This document shows, in pieces, positions 27,975 to 30,783 of a stretch of 64,000 bases of DNA. The position numbers and the translations under genes are program-made. Source of the DNA: Candidatus Zixiibacteriota bacterium (lineage in GTDB: Bacteria > Zixibacteria > MSB-5A5 > GN15 > FEB-12); contig JACZWU010000002.1 in NCBI GenBank assembly GCA_022571985.1, positions 248,001 through 312,000 on the forward strand, in the 5' to 3' direction. Numbering within the stretch: the first letter of the stretch is position 1; each line of letters begins with the position of its first letter. The notes under the pieces were generated by a model that saw only the letters and a list, made by a program, of their open reading frames with translations, had not been told where the DNA came from and ran no database searches.

Positions 27975-28105
27975 GCAAAGCTCCTGTTATTGATTTTGAT
28001 TTCTGAGTAATTAAGTGGTAGGCATAAGCTCTGTAAAGTGAAATTAGAGCAAATGATGAGTTGGCCGGCTCTTGTTCACGATTTTGGATGACTTAGAGGA
28101 ATTTT

Positions 28106-29611
28106 CTATAGTCCCTTTTCACTATGTTTTGAAATCTTGAAATTATATGCTTTTGATTGTTCAGGTTTTGAATTTTTCACTATTTTTGGAGGTGAAAGTT
28201 TATTCATTTGATTGGCCATTTCCTCGAGTGCAGAATTGAAGTCTTCTACAAAAAGAAATGCTTCTCGAGGCTGAATGTCACTTACAACAAGTCCGTCCCA
28301 GTACATTTTTAATTGATAAAGATGTATTGGTTGTCCAGACCCCACCTTGATTTCGTATATTATTATTTTATTATCAGTAGTTTCTCTGTATACGTCAACT
28401 CGCGTGCCAGTGGGCCATACCGAATATTCATCAGTAATATTTTCGTCTGGATTGGTAGCCTTGAGCATTTCCATCCATTTTTTCTTGAGTTCTTTTTCGC
28501 TTTTTTCTCTAATGCCTTTTGGTGGCCTAATTTCATTCAATTTATCAAAGATGCTGTTCCAGTCACTATCTTTCCAATTGAAGTCGGTTTTATTGTTAGT
28601 AGTTGACAAAACGCTCCTGGGAAGTTCAGGTATCGTAAGCTCACCAGTGAAATCATTATAGTTGTTATGACGTGATAACCGACTCTCGCCTCCTTCAGTT
28701 TTCCAAATAAATTCAAATTGTCGAGTAGCTATAGTTCTCTTACCCAGCCGAATGTCAATCCCTTGCGTTGGTATATTCCCTTGATAGTAATACCTTGCTG
28801 GATTCCCACTGACAGACTTATCCCTTTTAACTGTGTCAAGTGTACCATAAGTGTACGTCAGTTCGTAAACTACTCCGGCAAGTTCAATTTTGAAGTACTC
28901 GGTTGTGCTGTTGGCCAATGGCACGTGAATCGGAGGAACTTGCTTTGAATCGTTCTTTATTGAGACGACAATTGTTCCTTGTTGTTCTAGTTTCTTTTCA
29001 TCTAAATCAAGATATCCTCTATATAATACACCTAAGTGCTCTATTAGCCATTCTCTAAGGCTTGAAAGGTCGCTTGCTGGTGCACCTCTACCTTGAGCTG
29101 TTTGAACAAACTTCAAATCTACTTTTACATTAACTAGAGTCGAAAAATCAGTAGGTAGGAATTCATTGTCAGGTGCGTTAACATTATCTTTAATGACCAT
29201 TTCCGGCTTAAAGGGACCTTCGACATAGTAAAAGCCGTTAGTGTTTTTACTCGGCCTTGTCCACAGCTTCCAAGGTCCGTTTTCTCCAGATAACGTGGCA
29301 AGCGCATTCTTTAGTCCGAATCCATGTTCATTTAATCTGTCTTCAGTGGTAGCTGATTCACCCAATTGCAGAGCCTTCTCCAGTATATCCAAGGGCATCC
29401 CTTTGCAATTATCAGCGATGAACATGTTAACCATTTCCTCTGAATCTTCTTTTATAAAAATTATGTCGATTCGAAATTTATCTTCAGGTCTTCTTGCTGC
29501 AATTGCATTATCAATCAGTTCACTTACGCATTGATGAAACAGCAAATTCTGTTTCGACAATCCTCTGAATAATCCTTCAGTTGCTAGGAGCTTTACTTTC
29601 TTTTCAGCCAT
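28106..29611 (-). CDS. MORC/MutL-like GHKL ATPase with putative PD-(D/E)XK nuclease-like C-terminus
   Basis: 501 residues. The N-terminal GHKL ATPase has motif I ELIDNA (31-36), motif II DNCKGM (67-72, with Cys replacing the usual Gly of DNGxGM) and motif III HGFGLKNA (96-103). The closest general pattern is the MORC/MutL-like ATPases found in prokaryotic restriction and defence contexts. Near the C-terminus, D406, E420-x-K422 (YEIK) and Q433-x3-Y437 (QLKMY) fit a PD-(D/E)XK nuclease core with a QxxxY element. It is AT-rich relative to its neighbours and alone on its strand, with no methylase or helicase nearby. A defence or DNA-processing role is inference. GAAGGA lies 8 nt before the ATG. 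Confidence 0.7.
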   Translation of the reverse strand: MAEKKVKLLATEGLFRGLSKQNLLFHQCVSELIDNAIAARRPEDKFRIDIIFIKEDSEEMVNMFIADNCKGMPLDILEKALQLGESATTEDRLNEHGFGLKNALATLSGENGPWKLWTRPSKNTNGFYYVEGPFKPEMVIKDNVNAPDNEFLPTDFSTLVNVKVDLKFVQTAQGRGAPASDLSSLREWLIEHLGVLYRGYLDLDEKKLEQQGTIVVSIKNDSKQVPPIHVPLANSTTEYFKIELAGVVYELTYTYGTLDTVKRDKSVSGNPARYYYQGNIPTQGIDIRLGKRTIATRQFEFIWKTEGGESRLSRHNNYNDFTGELTIPELPRSVLSTTNNKTDFNWKDSDWNSIFDKLNEIRPPKGIREKSEKELKKKWMEMLKATNPDENITDEYSVWPTGTRVDVYRETTDNKIIIYEIKVGSGQPIHLYQLKMYWDGLVVSDIQPREAFLFVEDFNSALEEMANQMNKLSPPKIVKNSKPEQSKAYNFKISKHSEKGL

Positions 29612-29691
29612 ATCGTTTTTCCTTCGTTAGTTGAAGACTATGAATTAAAAAATCACACAACATTAATACGTTTGGCATAGTGAACGACCAT

Positions 29692-30783
29692 TTACTTAGA
29701 TTCTCGTCTGTTCTCCTGCTCACTCTCCACATCAACCGGGTGCAGTTTGTATTCTAAAATCTGCAGCAGTGTCATAAATACCGCAGCAATTAAAGGTCCT
29801 AAAATAAGCCCCAAAAGTCCGAACAAAGAAATACCGCCCAAAATAGAGAAAAACAAAAGCAGCGGATGTATCGAGGTTCGTCCGGATATCATGATCGGTC
29901 TGAGGACATTATCGACCTGACTGATAATTAGCATGCCTATACCGATTATCAAAAAGCCCTGTAAAAAAGAGCCGCCAATTATCAGAATCAAGCCGGCCGG
30001 AATATAGACCACAAATGCGCCTACAATGGGGATAATAGACAAGAGCGCCATCACCGCTCCCCAGAAGACAGGTGAAGTGAAATCAAATATCCAGAACATT
30101 ATTCCTCCCAGGACACCCTGCAGCAGCGCAATGACCACACCGCCGTACATAGTGGCATAAATGACTTCACGCAGGCGCTTGAAAGTTATATCGACTTGTT
30201 CGACTGTCAGGGGAATTAGTCTTTTTATCTGATGTATTATCTCGTCGCCGTCTTTGAAGAAATAATACATACTGAAGATCATCAGACCGAAGTAAAAGAT
30301 AAACTTGGTGCCGTTGGTTATAAGCCAGCTGGTCTGGGCAAATAGAAACCCGCCAAGATTATCGGCGGCCTGTTTAATGAGGCCGTCTAAATTGATCTCA
30401 GACAAATCGTAGTACTGCGACAATTTTGTCTTGATTGCTTCCAGCCAGGGAAGATCAACTGCCAGGGTTTTGTCAAGCTGTCCGCTTTGATACATCGCAT
30501 TTACTTTGGCCACGGCAATCGTGGCTTCGTTTATCAGTACACCAAACAGGTAGGCAAACGGACCGATTATCAATATGATTATTCCGGCTGTTAAAATCAG
30601 CGAAGGAATTACTTCAGATTTCAGCTTCAGAGAAAGTTTTTCATAAAGTGGATAGAAGATTATTACAAAGACAGCCGCCCAGCTTATGGGAGCAAAAAAA
30701 TCAATCATCAGACTGTAAAATAAATAGAAAAAGATTGAGACAAACGACAGAAATAAAAATATCAGAACATGTTCACGCTTCAT
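29692..30783 (-). CDS. AI-2E family (PerM/YdiK-type) membrane permease
   Basis: 363 residues with seven to eight hydrophobic segments: a pair near the N-terminus, a ~90-residue soluble region (~80-160), then a dense membrane block. This is the usual AI-2E/UPF0118 arrangement, with the typical late motif PxIxGRTSIHPLLLFFSILGG. Some family members export autoinducer-2 or act as Na+/H+ antiporters; no substrate can be assigned here. The C-terminus is charged (ESEQENRRESK). Confidence 0.88.
   Translation of the reverse strand: MKREHVLIFLFLSFVSIFFYLFYSLMIDFFAPISWAAVFVIIFYPLYEKLSLKLKSEVIPSLILTAGIIILIIGPFAYLFGVLINEATIAVAKVNAMYQSGQLDKTLAVDLPWLEAIKTKLSQYYDLSEINLDGLIKQAADNLGGFLFAQTSWLITNGTKFIFYFGLMIFSMYYFFKDGDEIIHQIKRLIPLTVEQVDITFKRLREVIYATMYGGVVIALLQGVLGGIMFWIFDFTSPVFWGAVMALLSIIPIVGAFVVYIPAGLILIIGGSFLQGFLIIGIGMLIISQVDNVLRPIMISGRTSIHPLLLFFSILGGISLFGLLGLILGPLIAAVFMTLLQILEYKLHPVDVESEQENRRESK

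Follow-up and report, generated by a model that had tools for sequence, protein, structure and literature searches.

The window, a stretch of 64,000 nucleotides from a Candidatus Zixiibacteriota contig, encodes a 501-residue protein in which an N-terminal GHKL-S5 ATPase is followed by a PD-(D/E)XK nuclease domain, and we regard it as probable (about 0.7) that this protein is a horizontally mobile, single-gene defence nuclease performing ATP-gated restriction of foreign DNA. The domains are recognisable, both active sites are conserved, the family is mobile, and in a sister species a FokI restriction-modification (R-M) system takes the place of the gene.

Gene and insertion site

The gene lies on the minus strand between an ATG at 29611 and a stop at 28106, within a segment that varies between sister species:

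28046..29728, no strand: inserted segment, absent in species G032, with a FokI R-M cassette instead in species G033 (comparison of sister species)
28106..29611, minus strand: GHKL-S5-PD-(D/E)XK protein, whole gene including stop, 501 aa (ORF; HATPase_c 1e-8; 44 relatives; model mean pLDDT 91)
29620..29624, minus strand: ribosome-binding site AAGGA, 8 nt ahead of the start codon (upstream sequence)

The composition of the gene departs from its surroundings, with a GC content of 38.4% against 45.8% for the window and a GC3 of 33% against 49–53% for the neighbouring genes, in agreement with the AT-richness remarked on in the initial annotation. A single copy was found in the 2.93 Mb genome, and no nucleotide relative was found in plasmids. 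According to Pfam, the immediate neighbours are an M14 peptidase and an AI-2E transporter; the earlier description of the gene as isolated among envelope genes fits these neighbours but overlooks the variability of the site.

The flanks (M14-type peptidase and AI-2E transporter) share 87–90% DNA identity with two congeneric species. In G032 they are joined by about 60 bp (L103), leaving an empty site. In G033 they are separated by 3.8 kb containing two genes (L102, 7425–11043): one codes for a protein of 575 aa that has all four FokI domains (cleavage domain E 2e-59), the other for a fused double N6-adenine methyltransferase of 629 aa, and the pair makes up a complete FokI-type R-M system. The intergenic site therefore occurs in three states within a single genus: empty, occupied by a FokI R-M system, or occupied by the GHKL-nuclease gene. 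Among the observations on context, this three-way occupancy argues most strongly for an R-M-like job of the gene, and because the FokI system lies at the identical chromosomal spot, the gene probably represents a one-protein defence against phages or other foreign DNA. An ordinary housekeeping gene is ruled out by the empty site, the patchy distribution described below and the foreign composition. Elsewhere in G033 (contig 19, L108) an SduA_C (Shedu-type) gene is present.

The GHKL-S5 ATPase module

Pfam detects HATPase_c in the window protein at E=1e-8, exceeding the Pfam cut-off, and gives no match above cut-off in the C-terminal third. The AlphaFold model of the whole chain has a mean pLDDT of 91; its structural matches span residues 9–366 only, and the tail was folded and searched separately. 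The module comprises the following features:

29102..29587, minus strand: GHKL (Bergerat-fold) ATPase domain, about residues 9–170 (Pfam, model, structural matches)
29504..29521, minus strand: N-box ELIDNA, residues 31–36, E31 and D34 invariant (alignment of relatives)
29396..29413, minus strand: G1 box DNCKGM, residues 67–72, D67 and G71 invariant, C69 for the usual Gly (alignment)
29303..29326, minus strand: G2/lid HGFGLKNA, residues 96–103 (alignment)
28514..29101, minus strand: S5/transducer domain, about residues 171–366 (model secondary structure; residues 9–366 aligned with MORC3/MORC2/Hsp90/Topo VI-B)
28589..28591, minus strand: K341, invariant transducer lysine (44/44 relatives)

The three motifs ELIDNA, DNCKGM and HGFGLKNA had been read from the letters in the initial annotation; the HATPase_c score and the residues invariant in all 44 relatives (E31, D34, D67, G71, E95-G97, G99 and K341) show that they are no chance resemblance. 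N-box, G1, G2 and transducer lysine place the protein in the GHKL superfamily with an S5/transducer domain, the first glycine of G1 being replaced by cysteine. This cysteine, rightly called atypical at the outset, is a glycine in 37 and a cysteine in 3 of the 44 relatives and represents tolerated variation. By analogy with other GHKL-S5 families, K341 is predicted to contact the ATP γ-phosphate.

The best structural matches of residues 9–366 are MORC3, MORC4 and SMCHD1 (Z 23–24), together with MORC2; MORC3 superposes at Z 24 (rmsd 2.8 over 283 residues). When viral models were searched with Foldseek, most of the matches were GHKL proteins of the RIIA, topoisomerase and HSP90-like types, and nothing sharper emerged. 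The MORC-specific S5 motif GhXhhpXXRhl (PMC2292703) corresponds to GIDIRLGKRTI (residues 284–294) in the window protein, where the glycine and the arginine fit and positions 5, 6 and 10 mismatch. The original label MORC-like is therefore appropriate for the fold, which is closest to MORC3/MORC4/SMCHD1, but not for strict membership of the MORC family.

The C-terminal nuclease domain

The tail carries the elements of a NucS/EndoMS-like nuclease:

28109..28513, minus strand: NucS/EndoMS-like PD-(D/E)XK nuclease domain, residues 367–501 (NucS profile E 2.2e-6; pLDDT 93; NucS Z 12.1; EndoMS Z 11.9)
28496..28498, minus strand: E372, predicted active-site Glu of helix A, NucS E127 (structural match; 43/44 relatives)
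28394..28396, minus strand: D406, predicted catalytic Asp, NucS D160 (profile alignment, relatives)
28346..28354, minus strand: E420-x-K422, predicted catalytic ExK, NucS E174/K176 (profile alignment, relatives)
28301..28315, minus strand: Q433-x3-Y437 motif, NucS Q187/Y191 (profile alignment, relatives)

Modelled alone, the tail reaches a pLDDT of 93, and residues 372–457 form a complete PD-(D/E)XK core with a helix-strands-helix-strand arrangement; the nuclease tail proposed initially is thus borne out by structure prediction, and a non-nuclease fold was not seen. The suspected D...ExK...QxxxY set is found as D406...E420-x-K422...Q433-x3-Y437 and, together with the alpha-beta core of the model, assigns the domain to the PD-(D/E)XK superfamily. 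The best structural match is NucS from P. abyssi (Z 12.1, 106 residues, rmsd 3.1), followed by EndoMS (Z 11.9), Can2 (10.0), FokI (9.7) and Shedu SduA (8.0). A sequence search of the PDB with the single window protein as query gave no match, and a sequence-level match needed a profile query, the family profile retrieving NucS at E 2.2e-6 and EndoMS at E 0.002.

The active-site positions of NucS are E127, D160, E174, K176, Q187 and Y191 (PMC7343888). All six are matched (E372/E127, D406/D160, E420/E174, K422/K176, Q433/Q187 and Y437/Y191), the first pairing being read where the structural alignment begins and the other five from the profile alignment. D406, E420, K422 and Q433 are present in 44 of 44 relatives, E372 and Y437 in 43. 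Because both active sites of the protein are kept in 43–44 of the 44 relatives, down to about 21–25% identity, ATPase and nuclease activities both appear to be under selection.

Relatives and lateral transfer

A genome scan with a six-sequence profile yielded 61 loci, many of them full length. The nearest relatives, with 61–64% identity over the whole protein, come from a groundwater Chloroflexi MAG, a WOR-3 MAG and a UBP15 MAG, the next (about 55% identity) from Flavobacteriales and Lentibacillus, and the 44 aligned relatives are drawn from many phyla. The tree places the window protein among these five lineages and not with its own phylum, where the only other full-length member found (L002) sits on a distant branch. 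Because of this grouping, and because just 2 of 132 genomes of the phylum contain the full-length family, the gene is taken to have been acquired by lateral transfer. Weak matches from the same phylum (e.g. L003, L005, L010 and L004) are other GHKL proteins without the nuclease tail and were discarded as non-orthologous.

Genomic contexts of the relatives

Most relatives are lone genes. Plasmid-borne copies were found in L. plantarum (twice) and L. acidipiscis, one of the L. plantarum plasmids harboring a Sau3AI-family endonuclease in the same region, and further relatives are located on three viral contigs. Several distant relatives adjoin known defence genes, namely a Sau3AI-like restriction endonuclease (REase) at the Bacteroidetes locus L047, type IV REases at L067 and L074, and a Pbe cluster (PbeC) at L054 in Halorubrum. 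With plasmids, viral contigs, integrase-linked units and some restriction genes, the neighbourhoods of the homologs extend beyond housekeeping, and purely housekeeping contexts, which the initial annotation had held to be incompatible with its defence proposal, were not seen. A PADLOC tally of near (130 proteins) versus far (69 proteins) neighbours of the same loci gave no clear excess of defence genes, the far set including genes of the same Pbe cluster.

In haloarchaea the same GHKL-S5 module is located within or next to PbeABCD-related clusters (L017 5959–8883, L054 7956–9425, L150 8001–10898). Its tail is a nuclease in Halorubrum or an N6/N4 DNA-methyltransferase in Halobaculum (and, by annotation, Halococcus), an apparent effector swap. 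On a Rhizobium gallicum plasmid (L019 3637–11363) a related GHKL ATPase is accompanied by a DEAD helicase, an EcoRII-N protein, an HNH protein, a type II REase, Vsr and Dcm, a cluster resembling the R-M operons of Iyer 2008.

The gene could also be cargo or machinery of mobile elements, its nuclease aiding integration, competition or spread of the carrier element and not the protection of the cell. In Gemmiger/Fournierella the gene is multi-copy, in 2.2-kb and 3.2-kb units at several loci of one genome, and several copies follow a tyrosine integrase at a distance of 22 bp; on the viral contig L082 the relative lies between two large serine recombinases. A site-specific recombinase is found within 3 kb at 20 of 64 loci, but at 44 of 64 none was detected nearby, the inserted segment of the window contains none, and a defence gene carried as cargo would be just as likely to keep its ATPase and nuclease sites, so that we consider this explanation improbable.

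The Gemmiger/Fournierella units (L030, L031, L033–L036, L039, L040, L042 and L043) consist of the single gene (2.2 kb) or of integrase plus gene (3.2 kb). They share a conserved leader ORF (DNIPDHRSRRFG) and differ in the dyad sequences over the promoter, an arrangement which suggests a regulated mobile unit.

Comparison with known systems

VcSduA from V. cholerae WASA, a Shedu type I-D protein annotated as paraMORC3-like, is a single GHKL-PD-(D/E)XK protein that stops phages while the host apparently survives, and the exchanges E27A and K557A each abolish defence (PMC12137116). As in VcSduA, one chain of the window protein carries an N-terminal GHKL ATPase, a middle transducer/clamp and a C-terminal PD-(D/E)XK domain, with E31 and K422 as apparent counterparts of E27 and K557. 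The window protein differs in its shorter chain (501 aa; K422 vs K557), the missing SduA_C match, the MORC/SMCHD1-like ATPase (LNEHGFGLK) and the NucS-like nuclease (QLxMYWDG signature).

That the protein is nevertheless a true Shedu (type I-D) member, with an SduA_C domain diverged beyond the Pfam model, seems to us as doubtful as a role in mobile elements. The domain order is identical, and SduA is among the structural matches of the tail (Z 8.0) and gives a weak profile match (E 0.54); however, SduA_C (PF14082), by which Shedu is defined, has no match in the window protein at E<=1 and is absent from the families listed for the 44 members, and NucS/EndoMS match the tail better (Z 12). For comparison with a VcSduA-like protein, a search for SduA_C in Gammaproteobacteria yielded a single suitable sequence (L146 1192–3171, 659 aa, GHKL plus SduA_C), which is unalignable with the window protein by BLASTP and weakly alignable by profile. 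A genome-wide PF14082 scan found none in the window's genome, while nine related genomes gave an SduA_C match with this model. The PADLOC and NCBIfam models gave no convincing match to the window protein, and neither SduA_C nor any other curated defence model matched it above cut-off.

Iyer, Abhiman and Aravind (2008) defined paraMORC3 as standalone, laterally mobile proteins with GHKL, S5 and a C-terminal RE-fold domain with E-D-ExK, reported mainly from proteobacteria and Bacteroidetes (PMC2292703). The architecture of the window protein agrees with this definition at the level of domain description. With NucS/EndoMS it shares the nuclease fold and all six active-site positions, whereas the N-terminal dimerisation/DNA-binding domain of these enzymes is replaced by the GHKL-S5 ATPase (residues 9–366). 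The eukaryotic MORC3/MORC4/SMCHD1 modules, the closest in structure to that ATPase, are followed by CW/SMC-hinge domains in place of a nuclease tail. Pairing of MutL with MutH/Sau3AI-type enzymes likewise combines a GHKL-S5 ATPase with an RE-fold nuclease, and Sau3AI-family genes adjoin two relatives, but in the window protein the nuclease is of NucS type and part of the same chain, and the gene is accessory and mobile. Among the papers searched, none mentioned both NucS and GHKL. Since the protein falls outside Shedu, MORC and NucS alike, we class it as paraMORC3-like, in a variant of GHKL-S5-NucS type, and the best reading of these comparisons is that it would work like VcSduA/paraMORC3.

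Proposed mechanism

In GHKL-S5 proteins such as MutL, topoisomerase VI and MORC, binding of ATP dimerises the N-terminal domains and closes a clamp. For the window protein we infer ATP gating, DNA as the target, and restriction of phages or plasmids. By analogy with MORC, MutL and Topo VI, ATP binding to the GHKL domain would dimerise the N-terminal gate and shut the clamp on DNA, with K341 sensing the γ-phosphate. Via K341 the S5/transducer domain may use ATP turnover to move the DNA or to reposition the NucS-type domains, which would cut foreign DNA at a metal-dependent site formed by E372, D406, E420 and K422. ATP hydrolysis would then reset the clamp and control the C-terminal nuclease pair. 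Plausible cues marking the target as foreign are branched or replicating DNA, ends, or the modification state.

The defence reading is supported by VcSduA, which also combines GHKL and PD-(D/E)XK domains and whose protection against phages depends on both active sites (PMC12137116). Against it speak the nature of NucS/EndoMS as DNA-repair enzymes, the neighbour tally and the many lone genes, the lack of a curated defence model matching above cut-off, and the proposal of Iyer et al. of a possible role other than R-M for lone genes of paraMORC3 type (PMC2292703). Least probable is an accessory role in DNA repair, in which a MutL-like ATPase and an EndoMS-like nuclease, joined in one chain, would nick chromosomal DNA at mismatches or branches. 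GHKL-S5 modules drive MutL and the topoisomerases, and the tail is closest to NucS/EndoMS, an endonuclease for mismatched and branched DNA (PMC7343888), but the mismatch-reading N-terminal domain of EndoMS is missing, and the idea is weak because MutL and two MutS homologues are already encoded in the genome and because the gene is accessory, being absent from both sister species, patchy across phyla and plasmid- and integrase-linked, unlike a repair gene.

Defence by a single restricting nuclease may have a wider form, which we put forward tentatively and at somewhat less than even odds: a widespread one-protein immune family apart from Shedu, whose MORC/SMCHD1-like ATP clamp would place the EndoMS-type nuclease on foreign DNA and recognise the structure of that DNA (branches, mismatches, replication intermediates) instead of its sequence, the haloarchaeal Pbe-like clusters using the same ATPase module with a nuclease or methyltransferase tail.

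Significance

The three-state site (empty, FokI R-M, GHKL-nuclease) within one genus offers a clean natural comparison. If the defence reading is true, a broad cross-phylum family of single-gene defence systems has escaped the PADLOC-DB and NCBIfam models used in this search, and the eukaryotic MORC/SMCHD1 silencing ATPases would be linked with a bacterial nuclease acting on foreign DNA.
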